Shown: piece after piece, positions 3,904-59,500 of the stretch
Layout of the letters: each line of letters starts with the position of its first letter
Numbering within the stretch: the stretch's first letter is position 1
DNA from: Gammaproteobacteria bacterium
GTDB lineage: Bacteria; Pseudomonadota; Gammaproteobacteria; JAJPIJ01
Direction: 5' to 3'
Length of the DNA stretch: 64,000 nucleotides
NCBI GenBank assembly: GCA_022071965.1
Contig: JAJVIQ010000003.1
Span: forward strand, 124,001-188,000
Made by a program: the position numbers and the translations under genes
The notes under the pieces: model-generated
Seen by the model: only the letters and a program-made list of their open reading frames with translations
Database searches by the model: none
Told to the model about the DNA's origin: nothing

Positions 3904-5288
3904 CCTCCGATCTGTCCACGACCGACGTGCCCGGGCTCGAGTGCCGGGACTTCCTCGATCGGCACCCCGACATCCGTGCCGCCGACATCCTCATCTGCGA
4001 TCCGGGCGGCGTCCTGCGCGGCAAGCGGCTGCGCCGTCACGAGCTGGAGACCATCTATCGCGACGGCCGCATGCTCTCCAGTTCGATCATGAGCCTGTCG
4101 TTCACCGGCGAGGACGTGGTGGAGACCGGGCTGGTCTGGGACGTCGGCGACGCCGACTGCCTGGCTCGGCCCGTTCCCGGGACGCTGGTGCGCGTGCCGT
4201 GGTCGGGGTACCCGCTCGCGCAGCTACTGCTCATGTTCGACGCCGAGGAAGGCATGCCCGCGGCCGTCGCCGATCCTCGCCTCGTCCTGAACCGGGTGGT
4301 CGCCGCCATGCAGGCCGACGGGCTGTTCCCGGACGTCGCGGCCGAACTCGAGTTCTATCTCTTCGACAAGGACAACGGCCCTGACGGCAGGCCGGTGCCG
4401 GCACAGCCGCCGGGCGCCGCCCGCCGAACGCGGCAGACGGATGTCTACAGCGTCGCCGAGCTGGTGGATTTCGCGCCGTTTCTGGAGACGCTGTACGAGT
4501 GCTGCCGGGTCCAGGGCATTCCCGCCGAGACGGCGATCTCGGAATACGCGCCGGGGCAGCTCGAGATCACGCTCACGCATCGCGGCGACGCCTTGCGCGC
4601 CATGGACGAGGCCGTGATGTACAAGCGTGCGGTGAAGGGCGTGGCCGCCGATCTGGACATGCGGGCGAGCTTCATGGCCAAGCCCTTCAGCGAGCACGCG
4701 GGCAGCGGATTTCACTTTCACGCCAGCGTGACCGATCACCAGGGCCGCAACCTGTTCGCCACCGAGGATCCGCTGTCGCATGCTCTTCTGCGCCACGCCG
4801 CCGGCGGCCTGCTGCACACGATGTACGATGCATTCGCGGTCTTCGCCCCCAACGGCAACTCCTATCGCCGCTTCCGCCACAACAGCTACGCGCCGGTGCT
4901 CCCCACGTGGGGCTACAACAACCGCACGGTGTCGGTGCGCATCCCGCGCGGACCCGCGAACTCCTGCCACATCGAGCATCGCGTCAGCGGCGCCGACGCC
5001 AACCCGTACCTGGTTGCGGCGGCAGTGCTTGCGGGCATGCACTACGGCATACGCAACCGAATCGATCCCGGGCCGGCGGTCGCCGGAGACGGATACCTTG
5101 CCGGCGGGGCGCCGCTGCCGACCACCTGGCAGCACGCGCTCGACATCATGGCGAACTCGGAGTTCATCGCCGAATACCTCGGCGAGGGTTTCCGCAAGGT
5201 GTTTGCCGCGATCAAGCGCAAGGAGGCCGGTATCTTCCTCGGCGAGGTCACCGCGCTCGACTACGACTGGTATCTGCGCGACGCGTGA
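3900..5288 (+). CDS. Glutamine-synthetase-family ligase (gamma-glutamyl-amine ligase type)
   Basis: The 462-residue protein has the two glutamine synthetase domains: a beta-grasp N-terminal part (about 1-115) and the catalytic part. Catalytic landmarks are ELEFYLFD, EYAPGQLEITL, the HFH pair in SGFHFHAS, the PNGNSYRR loop and the ADANPYL segment near the end. The length, and the lack of the adenylylation-site tyrosine context of true GlnA, suggest a PuuA-like gamma-glutamyl-amine ligase that uses ATP and glutamate with an amine. Its ATG overlaps the stop of the aminotransferase (ATGA), so the two are translated as a coupled pair. The amine substrate is not determined. No puu or spu transport or oxidase genes are next to it. 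Confidence 0.85.
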   Translation: MTSDLSTTDVPGLECRDFLDRHPDIRAADILICDPGGVLRGKRLRRHELETIYRDGRMLSSSIMSLSFTGEDVVETGLVWDVGDADCLARPVPGTLVRVPWSGYPLAQLLLMFDAEEGMPAAVADPRLVLNRVVAAMQADGLFPDVAAELEFYLFDKDNGPDGRPVPAQPPGAARRTRQTDVYSVAELVDFAPFLETLYECCRVQGIPAETAISEYAPGQLEITLTHRGDALRAMDEAVMYKRAVKGVAADLDMRASFMAKPFSEHAGSGFHFHASVTDHQGRNLFATEDPLSHALLRHAAGGLLHTMYDAFAVFAPNGNSYRRFRHNSYAPVLPTWGYNNRTVSVRIPRGPANSCHIEHRVSGADANPYLVAAAVLAGMHYGIRNRIDPGPAVAGDGYLAGGAPLPTTWQHALDIMANSEFIAEYLGEGFRKVFAAIKRKEAGIFLGEVTALDYDWYLRDA

Positions 5289-5334
5289 TGCACCATCGCC
5301 CTCGCGCGGCAGGCGCGCGCAGGGAATGTCAAGG

Positions 5335-6096
5335 CTATTCGCGCAGGATGCCGCGCCTCTTCAGGACGCGCACGAGCACGGCCGCGGCGAAGAGCACGAG
5401 GACGCCGCCGGGCAGCCAGCCCGCCGCACCCGCGCTCCACGCATAACCATGCGCGATCCGCTCGTAGGCGATCAGCACCAGGCACATGATCATCCAGGTG
5501 CAGGCGCTCGCGCAGTCCTTGATTACCACCCGGCGCCAGTTGAACGCCATGCCCTGCATCGTCGCCCGCAGTCCACGCAGTCGTGGCCACCAGCGGTGCA
5601 CCCGCGCGCAATAGGAGGCGTATTCCTCCCCGAAGCGGGCGAAGAGGAAAGTCTCCTCGGCGGCGACGATCGCGCGATAGGCGGACAGGAAATACAGGCT
5701 GCCGATCAGATACACCCAGGGACTGTTGTGTATGACGAACAGGCCCGCAAGGATGAGCAGATTGCCGTCGTAGAGCGGATTGCGGGCGTGCCCGAAGTAG
5801 CCCTCGGTCACCAGTCGATCGGCATGGACCTTCTTGTTCAGGCCACCGCGCTTGATGTACGCGTAGCCGATGACGGCGGCGCGCAACGCCTGCCCCGCCA
5901 TCGCCACGAGGAACCCTGCCAGGTCGAGCCAGAGGTCGCCGGCGAGGCTGCCGCCGGCCAGGCGCGGCCGGAATCCGAGGAACAGGGCCAGCATCACCAG
6001 CGGGAAGACCCTGTTCCTGTACTTGAACAGCCAGTTCCCGTAATCGACGAACCATGGCCATCGCGAGCCGATGCGCACGGGAGAGACGGTACCCAT
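5335..6096 (-). CDS. Membrane methyltransferase of the PEMT/ICMT family
   Basis: This 253-residue protein has about five to six hydrophobic segments and the signature of the phospholipid / isoprenylcysteine methyltransferase superfamily: LVTEGYFGHARNPLYDGN, followed after a membrane segment by EETFLFARFGEEYASYC. These enzymes use S-adenosylmethionine at the membrane surface; the target (phospholipid, sterol-like compound, heavy metal or protein) cannot be told. The gene starts 31 bases after cmoA on the same strand, so both probably share a transcript. The C-terminal half adds two further hydrophobic stretches beyond the catalytic motif. Confidence 0.72.
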   Translation of the reverse strand: MGTVSPVRIGSRWPWFVDYGNWLFKYRNRVFPLVMLALFLGFRPRLAGGSLAGDLWLDLAGFLVAMAGQALRAAVIGYAYIKRGGLNKKVHADRLVTEGYFGHARNPLYDGNLLILAGLFVIHNSPWVYLIGSLYFLSAYRAIVAAEETFLFARFGEEYASYCARVHRWWPRLRGLRATMQGMAFNWRRVVIKDCASACTWMIMCLVLIAYERIAHGYAWSAGAAGWLPGGVLVLFAAAVLVRVLKRRGILRE

Positions 6097-6928: not shown

Positions 6929-7154
6929 GGGGGACCTCGGAATGCCGACCTGATACTCGCTGACACGCGTGCCATGGGCCGGGAAGTCTAACACGCCCTG
7001 CCCGGCCAGGCCGCGACCCGTCCAGGCGGGCCGCACCGGCGAGCGGCCCGGGCGTACGGTGGCACCGCCACTTTCTGCTATCCTAGCCGCTGCTTCGGCA
7101 TCCGGGGGATGCGGCGCAGGAAGCAGCCCTGCGGCACAGCCAAGACGATCGGTC

Positions 7155-8054
7155 ATGACCTCCAAGAACAGCGTACTTGCCGTCCTATTCGCCGACATCA
7201 GCGGCAGCACGCGCATCTTCGAGACGCTGGGGGACGAGGCCGCGCGCCACAAGATCGCCAAGTGCCTGGACCTGCTGGGCGAGGTCGTCGCGGCCCACAA
7301 GGGCACGCTCATCAAGACCATCGGTGATGAGATCATGTGCACCTTTACCGCGGCGGATGAGGCCGCCCTGGCGGCCTGCGAGATGCAGTCTTCCGTCGAG
7401 GAGGCGGCGACGGAATACACCGCCTCCGGCCCGCTGTCGCTGCGGGTGCGCGTGGGCCTGCACTACGGCCCGGTCATGCTCGAGAACGACGACGTCTTCG
7501 GCGACACGGTCAACGTCGCCGCGCGCATGGCCTCGCTGGCCAAGGCCGGGCAGATCATCACCACCCAGCAGACCGTCGACGTCCTTTCCCCGCAGCAACG
7601 CCCCAACGCCCGCCTGGTCGATCGCGCCCCGGTGAAGGGGAAGAAGGACAGCATCGACATTTGCGAGATCCTCTGGCAGCAGGAGGATGTGACGCGGTTC
7701 GCCGCCAGCACCCTGTTGACGAGTCCCGGCGAATCTCAGATGCACCTGGTGTACCGCGACCGGACCGTCTCGGTGAACATGGACCGCAGCTCTGTGGTGC
7801 TGGGGCGCAGCGTCAATGCCGATCTTGCCGTGGAGGAAACGCTGGCCTCGCGCCAGCATGCGAAAATCGAATACCGGCGCGGAAAGTTTTATCTCATCGA
7901 CCAGAGCACCAACGGCACGTATGTGCGCACCGATGACGGCGTGGAGTCCTTCATACGCCGCGAGGAGGCACCCATCGCCGGGTCCGGGGTCATCAGCCTC
8001 GGCAAGCCGTTCAAGCAGAACCCGTCGGAGATCGTGCGCTTCCGCGCCGAGTGA
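7155..8054 (+). CDS. Class III adenylate cyclase fused to an FHA domain
   Basis: The 299-residue soluble protein has a class III cyclase domain (about 5-175) and a forkhead-associated domain (about 205-285). All catalytic positions are present: metal-binding Asp14 (LFADISGST) and Asp58 (KTIGDE), adenine-selecting Lys54 and Asp117 (VFGDTVN), and transition-state Asn120 and Arg124 (NVAARM). It should therefore make cAMP from ATP as a homodimer. The FHA part shows [17 protein letters not shown] and STNGTYV, the usual phosphothreonine-binding pattern. It starts a compact run with a PP2C phosphatase and a Ser/Thr kinase, so kinase phosphorylation may recruit or tune the cyclase. The start was chosen at the ATG directly before the catalytic core. 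Confidence 0.88.
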
Positions 8055-8077
8055 AAGCACCAGGGCCAGGCCGCCAG

Positions 8078-8827
8078 ATGACTACCGACCAGCGTTTCTG
8101 TTGGACGTCCGCCGTGCGCAGCCACGTCGGCATGGTTCGCCGCATCAACGAGGATTCGGTACTCGACAGGAAGGATGCCGGGCTGTGGGTAATCGCCGAC
8201 GGCATGGGCGGGCACGCCGCCGGCGACGTCGCGAGCCAGCTCATCGTCGATGCGCTCAGCCGCGTGGAGCCCGCCGAGGCATTGAGCACCTATGTCGATC
8301 GGCTGGAGGACGCGCTGCTGTCCGTGAATTCACGCCTGGTGACGATGTCGGCGCAGACACAGCAGACCAGCGGCAGCACGGTGGTGGCCATGCTCGCGTT
8401 CCGCAACCTGTGCGTGGTCATGTGGGCCGGCGACAGCCGTTGTTATCGGCTGCGCAAGGGCGAACTGCAGCAGCTCACCAGCGATCATTCGCACATCGAG
8501 ATGTACGTCGAGCAGGGCCTCATCACCCGTGACGAGGCGGCCATGCATCCGGCGGGCAATCTCATCACCCGCGCTGTCGGCGCGGCGCCGGAGTTGTGCC
8601 TGGAGATGGACGTGGCCGAGATGGCGGGCGGTGACCGCTATCTCCTCACCTCGGACGGGCTCGACAAGCACCTGTTGCAGCAGGAGATCGCGCAGGCGCT
8701 GGCCAGCGGCATCCCTGAAGACACAGCGCAGCGGCTCATCGACATGACACTGGCCCGTGGTGCCACCGACAACGTCTCGGTGGCGGTCGTCGACGTCCAG
8801 CGTACGCCCGCACAGACCCGCCACTGA
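8078..8827 (+). CDS. PP2C-family protein serine/threonine phosphatase
   Basis: This 249-residue cytoplasmic protein shows the ordered PP2C motifs: VGMVRRINEDSV, VIADGMGGHAAGD, SGSTVVAML, WAGDSRCY, NLITRAVG, LLTSDGL and ATDNVSVAVV. The aspartates that hold the two metal ions are all present, so it should be an active Mn/Mg-dependent phosphoprotein phosphatase of the bacterial Stp/PrpC type. It lies 23 bases after the cyclase-FHA gene and 30 bases before a Ser/Thr kinase, the classic arrangement of opposing enzymes. A GTG nine codons upstream, overlapping the cyclase stop, is an alternative start; the ATG at 8078 fits the family length better. Confidence 0.9.
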   Translation: MTTDQRFCWTSAVRSHVGMVRRINEDSVLDRKDAGLWVIADGMGGHAAGDVASQLIVDALSRVEPAEALSTYVDRLEDALLSVNSRLVTMSAQTQQTSGSTVVAMLAFRNLCVVMWAGDSRCYRLRKGELQQLTSDHSHIEMYVEQGLITRDEAAMHPAGNLITRAVGAAPELCLEMDVAEMAGGDRYLLTSDGLDKHLLQQEIAQALASGIPEDTAQRLIDMTLARGATDNVSVAVVDVQRTPAQTRH

Positions 8828-8857
8828 ACCGCCTTCCCACGCGCGGAGCCCCCCGAG

Positions 8858-10246
8858 TTGGCCAGCTTCTCCGACGCACTGCAGGCGCTGGCGCAGGGCC
8901 AGCTGAAGGCCGAAGTGCTGCTGACCCACATGGAGAGGGCGCTGACGCGCGATCCGCGGGTGATTGATTCAGTGCTCGCCCACCTGGCCAAGGCCTATGA
9001 ATGCGGCCTCATCGAGGCGCAGACCGCCGCCAAGCTGAAGGCGCACGCACTGCGAACGGTACGCGCACTGCAGGCGCATGGCGGCGAGCCCGCCGGGCAT
9101 TCGATCGTCGACGCCAGCCGTGCGGCCGCCGCCAGCCTCGGAGACGAGAATGCCACGGTGCTGCCGTTCGCCCCTGCCTCCGGGCACGCCGAAATCGGCG
9201 AGATCGACATCGACCTGACACAGATCGCCGCGGACGCGGCCTGCGACGCCGCGTCCGCGCACGCGTCCGTCGCCGTCGGCGCCGTCCTCAAGGAGCGCTT
9301 TCTGCTCGAGGAGATACTGGGCGTGGGCGGCATGGGAACGGTGTACAAGGGCCGCGACCTGCTGAAGGTCGAGGCCCGCGACAAGAACCCCCACGTGGCG
9401 CTGAAGGTGCTGAACGAGGCGTTCAAGAAGCACCCCGATGCGTTCATCGCCCTGCAGCGCGAGGCGAGCCGGCAGCAGAAGCTCGCCCATCCCAACATCG
9501 CGACCGTGTACGATTTCGACCGCAGCGAGGGCACGATCTTCCTGACCATGGAATACCTCGACGGTCAGCCGCTGAACAGCTACCTGCGGCGGCAGGTCCG
9601 GCCGCGTGGCGGTCTGCCGTTCGCGGAGGCCTTCCCGATCATCCGCGGCCTCGGCCAGGCGTTGGCCTATGCCCACGAGCACGATATCGTGCACTCCGAC
9701 TTCAAACCGGCCAATTGCCTTCTCACTACCACGGGCGCCGTCAAGGTGCTGGATTTCGGTATCGCGCGCGTGATCCAGGGTCAGGACGACAGCGAAAGGA
9801 CCCTTTTCGACCCCAGCAGTCTGGGCGCGCTGACGCCCGCGTACGCCAGCCCGGAGATGCTGAGCGGCGAGGAGCCCGACCCCCGCGACGACATCTATGC
9901 ACTCGCGTGCGTGGCCTACGAGTTGCTCTCGGGCAGGCACCCCTACGACCGCAAGTCGGCAATCCATGCACGCGAACACGCGCTCGTGCCGCCGGCCATT
10001 TCCGGCCTGGGTCGCGGCCGGATGCGCGCGCTCAAACGTGCGCTGGCGCTCCGGCGCCCGGAACGCACCCCTACGGTTGCCGCCTTCCTCGACGAACTGC
10101 AGGATTGCCGGCGCATGACGCCGACGGCCTGGTTCGCCATCGGGATCGTCGCGGCCCTGCTCCTGCTCGCGGCTGCCGTGATCGTGCTGCGGCAGGCGCC
10201 AGCCGATGTTGCAGCGCGGCCTGCGGTTCACGGGGCGGCGGGATGA
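8858..10246 (+). CDS. Membrane-anchored serine/threonine protein kinase
   Basis: The product (462 residues, TTG start) has an unassigned helical N-terminal region (about 1-140), a protein kinase domain (about 145-420) and one membrane helix near 430-450 with a short periplasmic tail. Kinase landmarks are the glycine loop GVGGMGTVYKG, ATP-binding Lys183 (VALKVL), catalytic Asp281 in HSDFKPAN, and LDFGIAR. The HRD arginine is replaced by serine, so activation may not need activation-loop phosphorylation; all residues for catalysis remain. It follows the PP2C phosphatase by 30 bases. There are no PASTA repeats, which makes a peptidoglycan sensor of the PknB type unlikely. Confidence 0.86.
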   Translation: MASFSDALQALAQGQLKAEVLLTHMERALTRDPRVIDSVLAHLAKAYECGLIEAQTAAKLKAHALRTVRALQAHGGEPAGHSIVDASRAAAASLGDENATVLPFAPASGHAEIGEIDIDLTQIAADAACDAASAHASVAVGAVLKERFLLEEILGVGGMGTVYKGRDLLKVEARDKNPHVALKVLNEAFKKHPDAFIALQREASRQQKLAHPNIATVYDFDRSEGTIFLTMEYLDGQPLNSYLRRQVRPRGGLPFAEAFPIIRGLGQALAYAHEHDIVHSDFKPANCLLTTTGAVKVLDFGIARVIQGQDDSERTLFDPSSLGALTPAYASPEMLSGEEPDPRDDIYALACVAYELLSGRHPYDRKSAIHAREHALVPPAISGLGRGRMRALKRALALRRPERTPTVAAFLDELQDCRRMTPTAWFAIGIVAALLLLAAAVIVLRQAPADVAARPAVHGAAG

Positions 10247-48785: not shown

Positions 48786-48969
48786 AGCGCCCCCTCCCAT
48801 CGCGCCCGACCGGGTATCACCCGGCCTCTGATGCTGCCTGCGGCTACCGTATCTCCTCTTGTTTATTGTCCTTGACTTTCATTTAGTTACGGCATAATCT
48901 TAAATTACATTATCATAGGTATAATCTTCTAACCCACTGGTAAGTTGTGGATTTCAAAAGGGGATGCGT
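48786..48969 (+). promoter_or_regulatory. AT-rich promoter region of the FHA gene
   Basis: In this GC-rich window, the stretch 48850-48960 is strikingly AT-rich. It holds TTGACT (48872-48877) with CATAAT (48893-48898) at a 15-base spacing, and a perfect TATAAT (48920-48925). Either could drive the FHA gene starting at 48970, which has AAAAGGGG six bases before its ATG. No specific operator is recognised. Confidence 0.5.
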
Positions 48970-49902
48970 ATGAATACAACCGCCAAATCGAGTCTATTCG
49001 AGGCTGTGAACAAGCCGCTCAAGGGCGCCCTCTCACGGCTGTTCAGCAGGCCCTTCCAGCTTGTTCTGGGCAAGCGCGTCCTGACCTTCAATCACCCGGG
49101 GGACTTCGAGTTCGCAATGAGCGGGCGCGTGGCGGTGTCCCTGGTCAAGGTCGTGGAGATGCTGCACCGGCCGGTGGCCTCCCTCCGGCGTGAGACCGTG
49201 TTCGTCCGCCTGGTCGAGCACAATCTGGTGCGGGCGCTGGAGCGCTGCCGCATGGATCCCGAGAGCATCGCCGAGTCGCTGCGCGACATGGGACTGCGCA
49301 GCTTCAGCACCGACTATCGCTGGCGTGCGATCTTCGAGGCACTGGCGGCGGGCGGACCGGAACTGAACGAGTATCGCCGCGTGGCGGTGATGAAATATCT
49401 TCAGTATCTCGGCGCGCGCCGCGACGCGCTCGGCATCATCCACTTCCACAAGACCGGCAGGGCCATGGAGGAGGAGATCGTCATCGACGCCGGGACGAGC
49501 GGCGAGACGGCCGATCCGGCCGCGCCGGCGCCGGCATGCACCGAGGCCGAGCTTCGTGGATTCCGGCGGTTGCCGCGCGGCCGGCCGGTCATCGTCACGG
49601 TCGGGCCCGGGCAGGAACTGACCCTGGCGCTGGCCGACCACCGGATCCGGCTGGTGGCGGGTGAACAACTCGTGCTCATCGATGCGGAGGGCCGGCAGCA
49701 TGCTCTCGACGCCCGTCGCCAGATGGTTGGACGTGGCCTGGGCAACGACATCACCCTGGAGGGCGACGGCCGCTCGGTGTCTCGCCGCCACCTCGTCATC
49801 GAGCCACTCGAGGACCATCGCGTGCGCCTCGTCGACGTTTCGGCGCAAGGGTCCTACATCCCCGACGGCGTGGCCGCGATCAGCGAGCTGGCGGCGGCCT
49901 GA
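48970..49902 (+). CDS. FHA-domain protein with an unassigned N-terminal region
   Basis: The 310-residue cytoplasmic protein has an N-terminal region (about 1-175) of unknown family, mostly helical and rich in Arg and Leu, then a linker with Pro/Ala, and an FHA domain (about 215-305): MVGRGLGNDITLEG, SVSRRHLVIE and the last strand LVDVSAQGSY. The phosphothreonine-binding Arg, Ser and His are kept. It could read the output of one of the two Ser/Thr kinases in this window. ATG chosen because AAAAGGGG is six bases upstream; another ATG at 48964 is too close to that site. A strong terminator follows. Confidence 0.82.
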   Translation: MNTTAKSSLFEAVNKPLKGALSRLFSRPFQLVLGKRVLTFNHPGDFEFAMSGRVAVSLVKVVEMLHRPVASLRRETVFVRLVEHNLVRALERCRMDPESIAESLRDMGLRSFSTDYRWRAIFEALAAGGPELNEYRRVAVMKYLQYLGARRDALGIIHFHKTGRAMEEEIVIDAGTSGETADPAAPAPACTEAELRGFRRLPRGRPVIVTVGPGQELTLALADHRIRLVAGEQLVLIDAEGRQHALDARRQMVGRGLGNDITLEGDGRSVSRRHLVIEPLEDHRVRLVDVSAQGSYIPDGVAAISELAAA

Positions 49903-51517: not shown

Positions 51518-52891
51518 TCACGTCCCTGGCGAGTCCCTTCCGCCCGGACTGCCGCCGGCTTCGTCGACGCGCAGGGCAGGCCCATCCGCCGCCGCGCCCT
51601 TCGAGGCGCTCCAGACCAGGCGGTCGTTGGCGCGCATGATCCGGTTGATGAGAGCCTGCTGGAATGCGCGGTTCAGCCGCATCTGCAGCGGCAGCGAGGC
51701 CCATTCGCTCATCTTCGCCTCGATCTGCAGAACGGTGACCTTGGAGACGGCGGTTACCGTCGCCGTACGTTTCGCACCCGCCTCGGCCAGATAGGCGATC
51801 TCGCCCACGCAATCCCCCTCGTTGACGGCGCCGATGATCTGGTCGCCGCGCATCACCGAGAACTGTCCGTGCACCACCACGAAAAACCCGGGATCGCTCC
51901 TGCCCTCGGTGATCAACACGTGCCCCGGGGGGTGCGTGCGCCATATGCCCACCTTGACGACCTCTCCGATCATCGCCTCGGTGAAGCCCTCGAAGAAGGT
52001 CAGCGACTTGAGGATGCGGACCTTCTCGGGTGTCGTCGGTTCGAGCTCGTCGCCCGCGATCTTCAGGGCATCGAGATCGGCGACGATCTCCGCGGCCGTG
52101 TGGTAGCGGCGGTCGAGCGATTTCTCCAGGCAGCGCTTGACGATCGCCGCCAGGCGTTCGGGTACCTCGGGGCGCAGCTCCCGAATGGGTGTCGGTTCAC
52201 TGTTGAGGACCTGCTGGATCAGCCCCGATATGCCGCGACCTTCGAAGGGCGGCTTGCCCGTGAGCAGCTGGTACATCACCACCCCGAGGGAGAACAGATC
52301 CGACCGTCCGGTGAGCTCTTCGTCGCGCGCCTGCTCCGGCGACATGTACATGGGCGAACCGAACCAGCCGACCACCTGCGTCTGCTCGGCGGACAGGCGG
52401 CGGGCAATGCCGAAATCGCCGACCTTGATGCGGCTGTCCCTGGTGAGCATCAGATTCGTCGGCTTGATGTCGCGGTGAATGATCCCGTGCTTGTGCGCGT
52501 GATCCAGCGCATCGGCCGTCTGGCGGAAATAGCCGACCGCCTTTTCGATGGAGACGAGGTTGTCCTGCTGGCAGAGGGAGCGCAGGGTGGAGGCCCCCTC
52601 GATGTACTCCATGACCATGTAGAAGGAACCGTCGTCCAGCTCGCCGGCGTCGTACACCTTCAGTATGTGCGGGTGATCGAGACTGCCTGCCGTCTGCGCC
52701 TCGTTGAGGAACATCTTCCTTGCCAGCTTGCCGCGCTTGCTGGAGTCGCCGGTGTTGGTCGCGACCTTGATGGCCACGCGCCGGTCGAGGATGGGGTCAC
52801 GCCCGATGTAGACCATCCCCATGGCGCCGCGCCCGGCGATGCCGGTCACCTCGTACTTGCCGATGCGATTGGGTGTGTTCGTGGCATTCAT
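51518..52891 (-). CDS. Serine/threonine protein kinase fused to a cyclic-nucleotide-binding domain
   Basis: The 457-residue soluble protein has a kinase domain (about 12-275) with GRGAMGMVYIG, ATP-binding Lys42, HRDIKPTN with catalytic Asp141, GDFGIAR and SPMYMSPEQ, followed by a CRP-like cyclic-nucleotide domain (about 300-420). The phosphate-binding cassette reads VGEIAYL then KRTATV, with the Glu and Arg needed for cAMP or cGMP binding both present. A Gly/Ala-rich tail follows. There is no membrane helix. It could be switched by cAMP, which the cyclase at 7155 would supply; this link is inference. It shares direction with, and precedes by 210 bases, the glycerate kinase. Confidence 0.9.
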   Translation of the reverse strand: MNATNTPNRIGKYEVTGIAGRGAMGMVYIGRDPILDRRVAIKVATNTGDSSKRGKLARKMFLNEAQTAGSLDHPHILKVYDAGELDDGSFYMVMEYIEGASTLRSLCQQDNLVSIEKAVGYFRQTADALDHAHKHGIIHRDIKPTNLMLTRDSRIKVGDFGIARRLSAEQTQVVGWFGSPMYMSPEQARDEELTGRSDLFSLGVVMYQLLTGKPPFEGRGISGLIQQVLNSEPTPIRELRPEVPERLAAIVKRCLEKSLDRRYHTAAEIVADLDALKIAGDELEPTTPEKVRILKSLTFFEGFTEAMIGEVVKVGIWRTHPPGHVLITEGRSDPGFFVVVHGQFSVMRGDQIIGAVNEGDCVGEIAYLAEAGAKRTATVTAVSKVTVLQIEAKMSEWASLPLQMRLNRAFQQALINRIMRANDRLVWSASKGAAADGPALRVDEAGGSPGGRDSPGT

Positions 52892-52959: not shown

Positions 52960-55900
52960 TCAGACGATCAGCTCCACCGGTGAGACGGCCACGCCCTGAG
53001 CATACTCGATCCCGAGGTCCTTCGCCTTTGCGAGCGCCGCCTTGTTGTCGATGCAGTCGGCGATGGCCGGCATTCCGAAGTAGTGCGCCATCTCCACCGC
53101 CGACTTGACCAGCGCGGCATCGCCCCTGTCGTTGGCAATGTCGCGGGTGGCCATGCGGCCGATGCGAACCAGGTTGACCTTCAGCGCCGCGACGCGGCTG
53201 AAAGATGACGCCTCGCCGCCGAAGTCACCATACAGGAAACGGCAGCCGTACTCGCGCAGGGCGTTGACCAGTTCGGTGATCTCCAGGTTGGCCTCGGCAC
53301 CCGGCGCCTCGGTGATCTCGAAGCAGAAGCGGCCGGGCGGCGCCGCGGTGCTGATGAACTCCTCCCCGATGAACGTGGCGGTGGCGGGGTCGCGCAGCGA
53401 TTCGGCCGTCAGCACGATGACGCACATCCCGCCGGCCGGCAGCCGCTCGGGATTGTCCACGACCCAGCGCATGGCCGCGCGCACGAGCCAGCGGTCGAGG
53501 TCCGTGGCGCGCTGAAGTTGCTCCGCGGCCGCACGCAAGGCGCGGGCGCTGACACGGGTGCCGCCCGGCAGCTGCATGGACGGCACCAGTTCCATGTGGG
53601 TGGGCAGCTGCGAGGAGCCGCCCTGCGACTGTGGCACGATACGCTGCAGCGCCAGGCGGAGGCGATCGTTGTCGAGCGCCACGCGCAGGTGCTCGCCGAG
53701 CCGGCCGGTCACGCGTGATCCCGCGTCGCCCTCCTCGTCCACGTGCACTATGCGTATCGGCGCGCTCCCCGGCGCCTGGGCGAGTGCCAGCGCCGCCTGG
53801 GCAGACTTCAGGATCTGCTCGGCGTTCGCCGGTTCGGTGCTGAACGGGACTAGGCCGGCGCGGGCCTTCGCGCCGCCGCCGGCGACGTCGTCTTCCCCGC
53901 CTTCGAGGAGCTTCAGCACCTTTTCGATGGTGGCGTAGCCGCGGCCCTGGGAGTGGTCGCGCAGCAATACCCCGAAGCGGTTCTCGCCGAGGCGCGCCGC
54001 CTGCGCCTCCGGCGGCAGGTCGACCCTGAATCGCGCGGCGCGCTCGCGCAGCCGCTGCTCGCGCTCGGCCTCGGGCAGCGTCTGCACGGCGGCCGGCTCG
54101 TGCACCTCGACGAACGCGACGACCTGGCTTTCCTTCTCCTGTCTGGCGACCGTCAGTGCCTGGTCGACCTGCTCGGTGAAGGCCTTGTCGTTCAGCAGGT
54201 GCGTGACGACATCGGAATGGACCTGCTGCTCGAGCCGACCGTGCAGGGCCTCCAGCGACTTGACCATCGCGCGCTCGACCGTCGGCAGTGGCACATCCTC
54301 GATCAGCCGCGCCGCGCCGCGACGCAGCTGCATCGCCAACTCCTGCAGCCCGAAGCTGCCCGCCTTCTGGCCGGTCGGATCGGCGAAGACGTAGGATCCG
54401 CCGTCCTCGTCGGCCCATGCCAGGCTCAGCAGGCGCTGCTGAGGACCACTGCCCAGCATGATCTCGTCGCCGACCTTCAGGCGGCGCACACGGTTTATCC
54501 ACGCCATCCAGTCCTCGCCGAGCGTGCTGGTCTGCATCCGCGCCTCGCCGCCCGTGGCCTCCTTGCGTCGGGACTTCATGAACTGCGCCTGCGCCTCCGC
54601 GGCACGCGTGAGATCGGCGAGATTGCGCTGCGCCTCGCGCTCCTGCTCCGCCAGCAGCACCTCCAGGCGCTCGTCGGCCTCGTTGAACACGGCCGGGTTC
54701 TCCGCCGTCTCGTTGACGACCTTGTCGACGATGAAATCCAGCTCGGGCAGGATCGACTCGCCGCCGTCGCCCTTCCTGGCCGAACGCACGCGCGAGAGGT
54801 TGTTCAGCATCCGGCGCGCCGGGTGATCGGTACGCTCGAAAAATTTCTTGTCCGACAGCGCCACCATGTTGACCGGGCGCCGCAGCTTGCGCAGCAGCGG
54901 CTTGACCTCCGGGATGACGCGCGGGTCGCTGCCGATCGCATTGAACAGCTCGAGCACGAGCTCGAGCAGGTCCCAGTCCGCGTCGCGCACGGCCTTCGGG
55001 GCCGGCGCCGCCGGACCCTGCGCCGCCAGCACACCCTCCAGCTGCGAGCGGGAGAAGGTGGAGGCCAGGCTGCCCGCCTCGCCGCCCGTCATCTCCAGCG
55101 CGCGCAGGGCCGAGCCGATCTCCCCGAGCGTGTAATGCGCCAACGATCCGGAGGTCGCGGCGCCGAAACCGTCGACTGTTGCACGTCCCGGCAGGCTGCC
55201 ACGCTGCAGATCGCGTCCCAGACCGAACAACGTGTGCGCGGCCTGGAACGCGTTGACCGGTGCCACCATCAGCGGCGTGCCCGCGGGCAGCGACGCGGCC
55301 AGCTGTTCGATCTGGCTGGCGATGTTCTGCACTGTCGCGCCGAGATGTGGTGCATGGGTGCCGGCGCCGCCGGTTGCCGTGGTGCCGCCGGTCGTTGCCG
55401 GTCCGCCCGTTTCGGGTCGCCGTCGCGGTGCGCTGCTGGTGACGCGCGGGCGCGGCGTCTCGCCGGCCAGCGGCACGCCGCTGTGGGCGAGAAAGGCGTT
55501 GGTATCCTCGTAAAATCGGCGGATCTCCGGCACTGCCAGCTCCTGGTAGGCGTGCAGCGCGGCGCGCAGGACCTCGGCACCCGGATGCGACCTGCGCAGG
55601 TAGTCGCCGAACTGACGCGCGAGGTAGGCAGGTCCGAAGGGGTTGTTGCCCTTGTCGATGCGCGTCCCGTACAGGAAGGACAGCCGCTGGTTCAACTCGT
55701 AGAGGGCGCGCCCCAGCTCGGTCTCGGCGCGATCGACCGCCTCCGACACCGCCAGGAACTGCTCGAATTCGTCGGTCTCCACCAGGGCGAGACCATCGCC
55801 CAGCGCACTCTGTCTGCCCTCGCCGGGGCGCGACGCCGCGGCGACACCGCGCGTGCAGGCGTGGTCGTACTGCTCGAGCAGCGCGGCGCGCAGCTCGTCG

Positions 55901-56538
55901 CGGATCGCGGCCTGCTTCTGCTTGAGCAGCTGGCCAAACTGCCAGATGGCGCGCTGCAGGGCGGCGTCGACCGTATCGCGCGAGACGTTCAGCAGGAACC
56001 CCTCGACGTTGCTGAAATACCGCTCCATCCAGTGGTTGAACCCGCGCTCAAGGCGCCGCCGGATATCCCGAAGCACCGCCATCCGCTCGATCTTGGTCTT
56101 GTCCTGGGCGCGAACGAGGTCGGGCAGCGCTGGCTCTCCGGCCGGGGGCCGGGTCTGCGCGGCCTGGGTGAGCGCGGCGATGGCGAGCGGATCGGGCTGG
56201 ATGAGCTCGGCGCCGACACCGGAGGTCAGCACCCGTACGACCTGCGCCTTCAGCTCGTGGGCGCTGTCGCGGTTGCCGACGGTGACGGTGAAGTGGATGG
56301 CGATGCGCTCGCCCTGAACCAGCGGGCGCTGCGCGACCATCCCGGCGCCGATCTCGCCCTCGAAGGACACGAAGATGCCGTTGCTGCAGAAGTCGCGAAT
56401 CTTGCAGGCGCGCGACTCGAAGCCTTCCCCGGCGATCAGGGCGTCGAGAAACACCGGGTAGCGCGGTGTGCGCCGCTGTTCAGCGGACGGGGGCCTGTCC
56501 CCCGGTCCGGAACCCCCGCTGAACTCGCCATTCGTCAT
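52960..56538 (-). CDS. PilZ-DUF1631 protein with degenerate GGDEF and EAL domains
   Basis: The 1192-residue cytoplasmic protein begins with a PilZ-like domain (about 20-130: RRTPRYPVFLDALI), continues with a long DUF1631 region (about 150-760) broken by a Pro/Gly/Thr-rich linker near 380-420, and ends with a degenerate GGDEF (about 780-930; the active-site loop reads GENRF) and a degenerate EAL domain (about 950-1190). In the EAL part the motif reads ELV, the DDFGTG loop reads GDFGGE and the catalytic Lys region reads VNLVRIG, so it should not be an active phosphodiesterase; it ends in EYAQGVAVSP, as real EAL domains do. It looks like a c-di-GMP-sensing scaffold. It lies 68 bases before the kinase gene on the same strand. 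Confidence 0.86.
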   Translation of the reverse strand: MTNGEFSGGSGPGDRPPSAEQRRTPRYPVFLDALIAGEGFESRACKIRDFCSNGIFVSFEGEIGAGMVAQRPLVQGERIAIHFTVTVGNRDSAHELKAQVVRVLTSGVGAELIQPDPLAIAALTQAAQTRPPAGEPALPDLVRAQDKTKIERMAVLRDIRRRLERGFNHWMERYFSNVEGFLLNVSRDTVDAALQRAIWQFGQLLKQKQAAIRDELRAALLEQYDHACTRGVAAASRPGEGRQSALGDGLALVETDEFEQFLAVSEAVDRAETELGRALYELNQRLSFLYGTRIDKGNNPFGPAYLARQFGDYLRRSHPGAEVLRAALHAYQELAVPEIRRFYEDTNAFLAHSGVPLAGETPRPRVTSSAPRRRPETGGPATTGGTTATGGAGTHAPHLGATVQNIASQIEQLAASLPAGTPLMVAPVNAFQAAHTLFGLGRDLQRGSLPGRATVDGFGAATSGSLAHYTLGEIGSALRALEMTGGEAGSLASTFSRSQLEGVLAAQGPAAPAPKAVRDADWDLLELVLELFNAIGSDPRVIPEVKPLLRKLRRPVNMVALSDKKFFERTDHPARRMLNNLSRVRSARKGDGGESILPELDFIVDKVVNETAENPAVFNEADERLEVLLAEQEREAQRNLADLTRAAEAQAQFMKSRRKEATGGEARMQTSTLGEDWMAWINRVRRLKVGDEIMLGSGPQQRLLSLAWADEDGGSYVFADPTGQKAGSFGLQELAMQLRRGAARLIEDVPLPTVERAMVKSLEALHGRLEQQVHSDVVTHLLNDKAFTEQVDQALTVARQEKESQVVAFVEVHEPAAVQTLPEAEREQRLRERAARFRVDLPPEAQAARLGENRFGVLLRDHSQGRGYATIEKVLKLLEGGEDDVAGGGAKARAGLVPFSTEPANAEQILKSAQAALALAQAPGSAPIRIVHVDEEGDAGSRVTGRLGEHLRVALDNDRLRLALQRIVPQSQGGSSQLPTHMELVPSMQLPGGTRVSARALRAAAEQLQRATDLDRWLVRAAMRWVVDNPERLPAGGMCVIVLTAESLRDPATATFIGEEFISTAAPPGRFCFEITEAPGAEANLEITELVNALREYGCRFLYGDFGGEASSFSRVAALKVNLVRIGRMATRDIANDRGDAALVKSAVEMAHYFGMPAIADCIDNKAALAKAKDLGIEYAQGVAVSPVELIV

Positions 56539-56590
56539 GATAATTGTTGTCAACGCGCGCGGCCGTTGCCGCCAGGGAGGAATAATAGTG

Positions 56591-59500
56591 TCAGCGGGCG
56601 ATCGACGGCAAACCGGCCGCGGCCGCACGCGGCTCCGCCGCCGGCGGCGTTGCGCCCTGCAGCAGGCTCTTCACCATGAGCCGGTGCACCTCGTCCAACT
56701 CCTCCGCGCATTGCATCCTCCGTCCCAGCATCTGCGCAATGACCGTGCCGGCGCCGTACAGCAGCCGATTGGTCGCCACCGCCGGCAGGCGAGCGTCGGG
56801 CGTCATGATGCCCGCGAGGTTGAGCGGATCGACGGCATTCAGCGCTACCCATTCGTCGTGGACATCGGGGGCATCGTGGTCCGGGACGGCTCTGAGCGCC
56901 GTGACGGCATCCGCATGGGCAAACTGCTCGCCCGCCACGCCGGCGACGAAACGCCCGGAACGTATTTCCCCGCGCGCCTCCAGGCGCCTGAGTACCCTCA
57001 ACAGCTCCCACCACGGCGGGGCCCATGGCTCGCGTTCGGTGAGCCGCCGGAAAAGGATCCCGTAACGGTTGAGCAAGGTTCGGGCCGCATGCTCGAACTC
57101 GGCGGGTCCCGGCGGTTCCGCCGTGGCGCACTCGCGGCTGCTCGACCAGCGTCCGCTGCCGCTCGCGCCGTGGCGGGCCGGATGCTTGGCGCGGCGCATC
57201 AGCTGGCGCAGGCCGTCGAAACTGTCGGCAACCACCGCGCCGGCGGTCACCAGCGCCGCCAGGGCGTGACGCAGACCCAGCTCGTCCAGGCCGCTGGCCT
57301 CGCAGATCTCCTCCGTGAAGCTCGGGCCGCGGCTGGCGAGGAACTCGAACACCCGCTGCGCGTCACGCCCCGCGATCGGCGCCGCATCGAGGCGCTGACG
57401 GCTCGCGGCCAGTCGCTGCCAGACAGCCCGATGGCGTCGGGAAACGAACGCGATCGCCGCACCCCGGATCGATCGATATCCGCCCGTGCCGCCCAGGCGC
57501 GCCCAAGTGATGCGTCCGGACAGGCAGAGGCTGTCGAGCATTGCCGGCTCGTAATTGACGATGCGCGCCGGCAGCAATTCCCGCTCCCACGTCGCCGCCG
57601 GGGCGGGGAACCCCTCGAGTTGCTCGAGCACGCGCTGCAGCGAGACATCGCCGAAGAGGCGCTCGGCCGGCAGCACGTGCTGCCAGCGCAGGAGGAAGCG
57701 GATGAACTGCGTCGCGCTGACCGGCTGTACCGCGCGCCGCAGGCGCTGCATCGTGTAGCTGTGGATGCGCGCGAGCAGACGGCGCTCGCACCATTCCGTG
57801 TCCGTCGCCTCGGGTGTGTAGCGGCCGCGCAGCACGAAGCCCTCGCTCTCCAGAGCGAGCATGGCCTGCTCCAGCCGCGACGCCGGGAGCCCGAGCTCGT
57901 CTGCCAGCGCCGCGACCCGCGCCGGGCCGAGCCCCTGCAGCCGGCCGCGCACCAGCTCGAGCAGCGCGTCCTCGCCAGTCCACGGCCGCTGCGACTCCGA
58001 AGGGGCCGCCACCGGCGGCCGCATCCGCAGCGCGCCGTACAGCGCCTGGAACAGGGGCAGGCGTTCCGCCGCCACCCAGAGGCCGCCGCCGCCCGGCGTG
58101 CGGACCCTCGTCGCGCGCCGTGCATCGACCAGCGCCGACAGCCAGCCGCTCCACGCCGCGCCTCTGGCCCCGGCCCCGCCCGGCGCGGATGGCGGCAACC
58201 CGCGGCGCGCCTCTGCCACCGTCAGGTAGCCCAGCCACATCAGGGCGTCGTGCAGCTCATCGGCGTCGGCGGCATCGGGCCAGGCCTCCGCGCGCACGCG
58301 CGCGATCGCCTCGACGTCGAGGCGCCCGAGATCCGAGGCGCTCTCCGGATCCAGCCAGCGCCGGCTGACGACGGCCTGGGTGCGCCGCTCCTCCAGCGGC
58401 GCATCGTCGAGGAAGGCGTAGGGGCGTGCCGTGAGTATCTCGGCGGCCATCGGGGAGGGCTCGGTCAGGTCACGGGCCACGATCCGCCGCTCGCCGGCGC
58501 GTATCGCGCGCAGCAGTTCCTCCAGCGCCTCGATGTCCATGGCCTCGTACAGGCAGTCCGCGATGGTCTGTTTGACCAGCGGGTGATCGGGGATCTCGCG
58601 CCTGCCGCCGACGATGTTCTCGAAGCAGGCGCGCCCGTCCGGGAACACGACCGCCATCAGGTCCTCGGCGCGCATTCGCTGCAGGCGCGGCGGAACCTTC
58701 CTGCCGCCGCTGCAGCGCGGTACCGCCAGCGCGATGCCCGTATTCCAGCGCCAGCGCGCGTTGAACATCGGCGCGTCGAGCAATGCCTGGACGAGCACCT
58801 CGCGCACCGTATCCGGGTGCAGGAAGCGGTAGACGTCCTCGAGCGGGAAGCTGTGGGTCTCGCCCAGCGACAGGACGATCGCGTCCTCGGTGGCCGCCGC
58901 CTGCAGCTCGAAGTTGAACTTGCGGCAGAAACTCTTGCGCAGGGCCAGCCCCCAGGCGCGGTTGAGCCGGCCGCCGAACGGCGAGTGCAGCACCAGCTGC
59001 ATGCCGCCCGCCTCGTCGAAGAACCGCTCGGCCACCAGCGTCTGCTGGGTCGGCAGCACGCCCAGCGCGCGCTTGCCCGCCATCAGATAATCGATGGCCT
59101 GCTCCGCCGCGGCGGACGGCACACCGGGCTTGGCGCCCAGCCAGGCGAGCAGGCGCTCGCGCGCCGGCTGGTCCGCGGCCTCCGCCTGCCCCCACTCACG
59201 CTCGAACTCCATTCGCAGGCGCGATACCGCGTACGACAGCGCATGCGTGCGTGCCGGCGACTCGCCGAGCCAGAACGGGATCGACGGCGGCTGGCCCTGC
59301 GCATCCTCCACCCGCACCGTGCCCGCCTCCACCCTGAGGATGCGCCAGGAGGTATTGCCGAGCTGAAAGACGTCGCCGGCCATGCTCTCGACGGCGAAGT
59401 CCTCGTTGACCGTGCCGACGAAGGTATCGGCCGGCTCCTCGCGCACCTCGTAGTCGGCGTTGTCGGGGATGGCCCCGCCGCAGGTGACCGCCGTCAGCCG

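Follow-up and report, generated by a model that had tools for sequence, protein, structure and literature searches.

The window analysed here (64,000 nucleotides of a gammaproteobacterial contig) encodes a Ser/Thr kinase, K1, that is probably a one-piece kinase controlled by a cyclic mononucleotide (cNMP), which together with a candidate DUF1631 partner would pass the cNMP signal to a c-di-GMP-type hub. What we observed for K1 are its domains, their conservation, the fold similarity of its predicted model and its gene linkage, and from these we infer its ligand, its switching and its substrate or partner. Transcription factors, channels and c-di-GMP enzymes make up most of the known cyclic-nucleotide receptors of bacteria. 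A cNMP-dependent kinase in one piece, if this reading is true, would represent the logic of PKA and PKG reached in bacteria by an independent route, from a PknB-like kinase with the sensor behind it.

Domain architecture of K1

Judged from its translation, which carries VAIK (K42), E64, H139-R140-D141 and D159-F160-G161, K1 is predicted to be a complete PknB-like Ser/Thr kinase (Table 1). The HRD motif is kept in 40/40 kinases fetched from a sample of class genomes (the class sample) and in 80 of the 81 rows of a family alignment (77 from the matches listed and four from the own genome). An earlier sequence-only reading of this DNA had described a soluble Ser/Thr kinase here without giving a strand; that description stands, with the gene on the minus strand and a hydrophobicity maximum of 0.88 (19-residue Kyte-Doolittle mean), which points to a soluble protein. 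The same mean exceeds 1.6 in 3 of the 81 relatives. Both the Pkinase match, which starts at residue 13, and the cNMP_binding match (PF00027, residues 318–392, E 7e-13) lie above the curated Pfam cut-offs, and the cyclic-nucleotide-binding domain (CNBD) is matched solely at the C-terminus. Behind its C-helix, no helix-turn-helix family such as would mark a CRP/FNR factor was found by Pfam at E 0.01; beyond the end of this helix (~435), the AlphaFold2 model has a low-confidence tail without secondary structure. The placing of the domains relative to each other in the model is uncertain (pTM 0.66).

Table 1. Features of the window around K1 and at the distant cyclase cluster.
Feature	Position	Strand	Basis or remark
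Class III nucleotidyl cyclase with FHA	6969..8054	+	PF00211 E 6e-26 and FHA (Pfam)
PP2C phosphatase (8051-8827) and second Ser/Thr kinase (8858-10246)	8051..10246	+	NCBIfam, Pfam
FHA-domain protein	48964..49902		Converges on glycerate kinase gene downstream of K1
K1	51518..52891	-	Single long ORF, 457 aa, ATG at 52891; AlphaFold2 mean pLDDT 87.5, pTM 0.66
K1 PknB-like kinase domain, residues 13-269	52085..52855	-	Pfam PF00069 E 3e-50
K1 CNBD, residues 287-435, including the helix ahead of it and the long C-helix	51587..52033	-	PF00027, CNBD-only model
Phosphate-binding cassette, residues 359-377 (G359 to A377)	51761..51817	-	G363-E364 and R375 present
E364 codon	51800..51802	-	Within K1 cassette
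R375 codon	51767..51769	-	Within K1 cassette
R417 codon, C-helix	51641..51643	-	Candidate base-capping Arg, by spacing to CRP R123 / Bd1971 R108
Gene for PilZ-like N-terminus, DUF1631, degenerate GGDEF and degenerate EAL	52960..56628	-	1222 aa; 68 bases ahead of K1 start

Conservation of the cyclic-nucleotide pocket

Family rows were drawn from a contig scan with a K1-led query, in which the best 80 matches were kept and gave 77 loci (L codes denote kinase loci, G codes genomes). In the resulting 81 rows, G342, G359, C361, G363 and E364 are present throughout, and R375 is kept in 79; the two exceptions (L078, L082) carry an Arg one column earlier. Since G363, E364 and R375 are conserved through the family in this way, a chance origin of the pocket in K1 is excluded, and the claim that the C-terminal domain keeps both the Glu and the Arg of the cassette is borne out. 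Cys361, three residues ahead of the cassette Glu, is also found in 119 of the 127 wider rows with Arg. The K1 cassette has a 2-residue insertion between E364 and R375, shared among the 81 rows listed only with L022, a near-copy, and L055. The L055 kinase (4331-5641) keeps the cassette and has HRY in place of HRD, so that its catalysis is possibly impaired.

Of the 40 class-sample kinases, 39 retain the Glu, L112 having Asp instead, and 31 retain the Arg, so Arg loss does occur, and the kinase motifs of the nine Arg-less members look intact. The Arg state changes five times on the kinase-domain tree; two of these changes are L078 and L082, which leaves three loss events. Kinases of this kind would fit a pocket that is a relic kept for folding only, on a constitutive kinase. 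For K1 we regard this as very improbable, because E364 and R375, and G363 with them, are invariant in all 14 members of the clade to which K1 belongs, and because the CNBD of K1 is under strong purifying selection: compared with the 94% identical relative L022, dN/dS is 0.085 in the CNBD, 0.05 in the kinase domain and 0.75 in the tail. Other invariants of the clade between residues 280 and 430 are L297, G342, G359, W397, A398, Q403, R405 and L414. In five distant clade members that we aligned, the CNBD is just 29–41% identical to that of K1, and the pocket is kept.

A further residue, R417 of the C-helix, tracks R375: of the 127 rows that have R375, 125 carry Arg at this position, as against 7 of 11 rows that lack it (one more R375-less row, a fragment, is left out). 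Less the insertion, E364 and R417 of K1 are 51 residues apart. The corresponding spacing from cassette Glu to cap Arg, in the passages of PMC6717892 that give it, is 51 residues in CRP (72 to 123) and 50 in Bd1971 (58 to 108, with R108 as the cap).

Predicted structure and the identity of the ligand

The CNBD-only model (pLDDT 90.7) ends in a long C-helix, predicted by AlphaFold2 to span 36 residues (400–435), in which Q403, F410, L414 and R417 are near-invariant. This predicted model and its matches to cUMP-, cAMP- and cGMP-bound domains place it in the CNBD fold. By sequence, the best matches among solved structures are the CNBDs of PKG and of PKA regulatory subunits, and PKG I also ranks first in Foldseek. 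The layout had earlier been likened to that of cAMP- or cGMP-dependent protein kinases with the binding domain behind the kinase, and this is a fair description because of these best matches and because the pocket is conserved through the family. The likeness is limited to the CNBD: the nearest solved structure to the kinase domain is PknB (E 1.1e-51), the 20 best solved kinase matches are all bacterial and PKG is next at 1e-32, so that, judged from solved-structure matches alone, K1 is not of the AGC group.

The 50 VIA-align entries listed for the CNBD, many of them cNMP complexes, span Z 15.9–18.9. They include PycTIR with cUMP as the top match listed (Z 18.9, rmsd 5.3, 152 aligned), CAP-cAMP (1g6n; Z 16.9, rmsd 1.9, 125 aligned), PKG I with cGMP (4ku7; Z 16.4, rmsd 2.0, 123 aligned) and CLP (Z 16.5), a CRP-like regulator sensing c-di-GMP. 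Because all of these entries lie within such a narrow range, the fold does not pick the ligand. We think it quite improbable that the ligand is of another kind, either c-di-GMP, to which CLP responds, or a pyrimidine cNMP of the sort bound by PycTIR. The scores of PycTIR and CLP, the PilZ-like, GGDEF and EAL parts of the neighbouring protein and the five kinase genomes without class I or class III cyclases (see below) would all suit such a ligand; however, the fold is non-discriminating, the cassette of K1 is of the canonical 3',5'-cNMP type, and a class III cyclase is found at four kinase loci. A 3',5'-cNMP, most likely cAMP, remains our preferred ligand.

The DUF1631 gene upstream of K1 and the linked clade

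The tightest link of K1, absent from the earlier reading, is the DUF1631-GGDEF-EAL gene just upstream (Table 1). In its product DUF1631, GGDEF and EAL are matched by Pfam; PilZ is unmatched by Pfam in the window protein and is matched in relatives. Among the 77 loci listed, DUF1631 stands beside the kinase only in L022, L023 and L024, which are the three nearest K1. Over 100 loci in total the pair was found in 13, in addition to the window; the automatic count was 12, and L140 was included manually because its DUF1631 gene is broken into two frames. Because loci were chosen as near K1, as best matches or by hand (L139–L141 were fetched because the tree put their kinases near K1, and L142–L161 were hand-picked from class-scan rows), 13/100 should not be read as a population frequency. 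A DUF1631 neighbour is missing at 87 loci, eight of which hold less than 1 kb upstream of the kinase. Weak matches to the DUF1631 profile at 57–125 bits in L025, L038 and L057, together with an additional 184-bit match in L146, were provisionally taken for GGDEF/EAL similarity.

A branch supported at 84 (99 when two further rows are included) separates the 14 DUF1631-linked kinases from the others, and the linkage needs one change on the tree; our trees are quick ones with long branches, and L146 drew an odd-composition warning. In the class sample, the clade falls under six family codes (f1, f29, f67, f71, f92, f134). The DUF1631 gene lies on the same strand, upstream of and near the kinase in 13 of the 14 (L023 is divergent), with gaps of up to ~120 bases, or overlap, where a start could be placed; start codons are unsure, and L142–L144 have no placed start. 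DUF1631 proteins occur in 94 of 274 class genomes, and some long forms are found in genomes without any kinase match listed (e.g., G057), for which reason the kinase probably joined an older DUF1631 family.

Thirteen partner proteins were aligned, with the split L140 omitted. DUF1631 and EAL are matched in 13/13, GGDEF in 12/13 and PilZ in 11/13 (E up to 1). By the usual motif definitions, the PilZ-type signature (RxxxR with [DN]x[SC]xxG) is present in 13/13, and GG[DE]EF is absent from all 13. The EAL catalytic motifs are mostly kept in L023, L024 and L146, and several are lost in the window partner. Given this loss and the missing GG[DE]EF, the partner encoded in the window probably acts as a receptor or scaffold of the c-di-GMP type and not as an enzyme. 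NCBIfam gave a match below cut-off of the DUF1631 part to the 'PacR family', and a literature search for PacR listed nothing clearly relevant; DUF1631 itself is mentioned in three of the papers listed.

Alternatively, the CNBD could bind a cNMP but work in dimerisation or docking, recruiting the kinase to the DUF1631 protein while catalysis itself stays unswitched by the ligand. The long predicted C-helix with its near-invariant residues would suit a dimer helix, and W397 is invariant in the DUF1631-linked clade and present in only 4 of the 81 family rows listed, which are the clade members there. We consider this reading rather unlikely, as docking alone would not require invariant ligand residues E364 and R375, and we favour a kinase that would be switched by its ligand.

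The FHA-domain protein downstream (Table 1) could read phosphothreonine; among the 77 loci listed, it is found in L022 only.

Cyclases and the source of the signal

The sequence-only reading had also pointed to a complete cAMP-producing enzyme 44 kb from the kinase. The gene exists at ~44 kb from K1 and looks complete, and its ORF carries, as read by eye, the residues expected of an adenylyl cyclase. It is, however, not specific to K1: the own genome has five PF00211 matches above cut-off (weakest 32 bits) as well as a class I CyaA, and this cyclase directly precedes a PP2C/kinase cluster, with which it probably belongs. As the specific partner of K1 it was therefore rejected. The cyclase-FHA, PP2C and second Ser/Thr kinase genes in a row (6969-10246) form a phosphorylation cluster in its own right, cyclase included.

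Co-conservation with class III cyclases, which had been suggested as a check, gave no specific signal. CNBD-kinase genomes were defined, by our own reading, as those with a match reaching profile position ≥420, and at least 56 of the 274 genomes in the class sample hold the kinase-CNBD layout. Class III cyclases occur in 49/56 of those listed vs 133/218 others (p 1e-4), but also in 39 of 43 control genomes with a strong match to a kinase without CNBD (p 0.75 vs 49/56), some of which could hold a weaker, unlisted CNBD kinase. With these controls, the excess cannot be ascribed to the CNBD, and we dropped it as evidence for cAMP. The same fault applies to the presence of class III cyclases in 50 of 50 genomes (those of 50 of the 77 loci listed). 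Class I cyclases show no excess (18/56 CNBD-kinase genomes listed vs 64/218 others). CYTH, the class IV cyclase, was found in 6/6 genomes searched, and its presence is uninformative because 11/14 controls have it too.

Five CNBD-kinase genomes are without class I and class III cyclases (all five have CYTH), yet Glu and Arg are intact in the kinases fetched from them. Conversely, eight of the nine Arg-less kinases are in genomes with class III cyclases (G101, G195, G204, G207, G240, G308, G318); the ninth, L102, comes from G116, a genome with a class I cyclase but without class III, and the other kinase fetched from G116 retains its Arg. The state of the pocket thus does not follow the presence of cyclases.

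At some loci a class III cyclase adjoins the CNBD kinase or the DUF1631-kinase pair, and this occurs in three lineages. In L024 and L146 the cyclases are divergent from the DUF1631-kinase pair and have a common C-terminal extension (by eye); in G160 and G277, of the same genus, the cyclase lies behind the kinase in the same orientation; and in G137 (L147) it is divergent from the kinase. The count of 4/100 kinase loci (1.12 Mb) is weak by itself because ~1.5 would be expected by chance, a rough estimate from ~4 class III cyclases per 3 Mb genome. We give more weight to the recurrence of an arrangement, seen in L024 and L146 and again in G160 and G277.

Proposed mechanism and comparison with known systems

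In the mechanism that we propose, a 3',5'-cNMP would bind the C-terminal CNBD, with Glu364 contacting the ribose and Arg375 the phosphate; cGMP or another cNMP could take the place of cAMP. Arg417 of the C-helix would possibly close over the base, and the C-helix (400–435) may in turn shift or dimerise, in the manner of CRP or Bd1971, thereby altering the kinase activity. A PKG-type pseudosubstrate would be no option for K1, which has no N-terminal extension. The first candidate target or partner would be the PilZ-like/DUF1631/GGDEF/EAL protein, and the pair may relay a cyclic-mononucleotide signal to a c-di-GMP-type hub. Because K1 has a cNMP pocket and its gene travels with a c-di-GMP-type gene, it may be a meeting point of two messenger systems. 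A gene neighbour does not prove a substrate. That the two genes are a unit, in which a cNMP-dependent kinase has the DUF1631 protein as its dedicated target and cAMP or a related cNMP leads to phosphorylation of the hub, is a possible extension that we hold tentatively. If true, it would be a bacterial counterpart of PKA and PKG and would assign a function to DUF1631 in proteins of this type. With a DUF1631 protein linked to K1, a possible connection between cNMP and c-di-GMP signalling is directly testable, the family is large, and its natural Arg-losing relatives are ready controls.

K1 shares with PKA and PKG a protein kinase and a CNBD with the canonical cassette. It differs from them in having one CNBD, behind a kinase nearest to bacterial PknB, and in lacking an N-terminal regulatory or pseudosubstrate region; in PKA and PKG the CNBDs and the pseudosubstrate precede the kinase or sit on a separate subunit. 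With PknB-type Hanks kinases it shares the kinase domain, but it has no PASTA or membrane part and uses a cytoplasmic CNBD as its putative sensor. Bd1971 of Bdellovibrio, described in parts of PMC6717892 as a cAMP-gated EAL phosphodiesterase whose CNBD controls a c-di-GMP enzyme, resembles K1 in its cytoplasmic CNBD, its Glu/Arg cassette, the C-helix controlling output and the link between cNMP and c-di-GMP. Its CNBD is, however, N-terminal and fused to EAL, whereas that of K1 is on a separate kinase beside a degenerate-EAL gene. XC_0249 of Xanthomonas, according to PMC3770947, is a cGMP-binding CNBD-GGDEF protein with a linked class III cyclase, XC_0250. The likeness lies in a CNBD protein in c-di-GMP signalling and in a class III cyclase link as at the four kinase loci; the output of XC_0249 is a diguanylate cyclase domain, whereas that of K1 is a kinase.

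The combination of kinase and CNBD is not new to print, since a survey of Planctomycetota names the CNBD, in one of its passages, among Ser/Thr-kinase-associated domains (PMC11032199). Sections of other papers list cNMP_binding among PP2C-associated domains (PMC12088040) or, in a review, name Bd1971 and GAF-based cAMP sensors (PMC8846402). In the portion of PMC1821047 covered by a word search, 'cyclic nucleotide' and 'cNMP' were not found, and among the papers that our literature searches listed there was no characterised bacterial kinase with a CNBD.

Distribution of the family

The own genome holds four kinases of the kinase-CNBD layout; the other three share 43% identity with K1 along most of their sequence, and all keep Glu and Arg. 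The 77 loci listed have titles that are mostly Gammaproteobacteria, with broader Proteobacteria and a few others making up the rest, and outlying titles include Nitrospira, Desulfobacterales and three MAGs titled Klebsiella pneumoniae. The 40 kinases fetched from the class sample are not every one in that sample. Two loci titled Nitrospira or Nitrospirales (L029, L030) have close kinases on one long branch, which may reflect transfer or a mixed bin.

Two further CNBD kinases (L002, L004) lie ~2 kb apart at 62–67 kb of G000:C1; the genes around them, named by eye, resemble those for SCO1, PCuAC and a protein with a CBS domain, and similar neighbours occur in other loci. The neighbours of other kinase subclades were named by eye from the letters, and these names are partly unsure. 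With that proviso, phosphoglucose isomerase-like genes lie near such kinases in 34/77 loci listed and phosphonate-type mutase-like genes in 25/77 (L025, L069, L061, L089 and others), and thiL-, nusB- and rib-like genes lie near kinases in ~15 of the 77 (e.g., L070, L077, L079, L080, L098).
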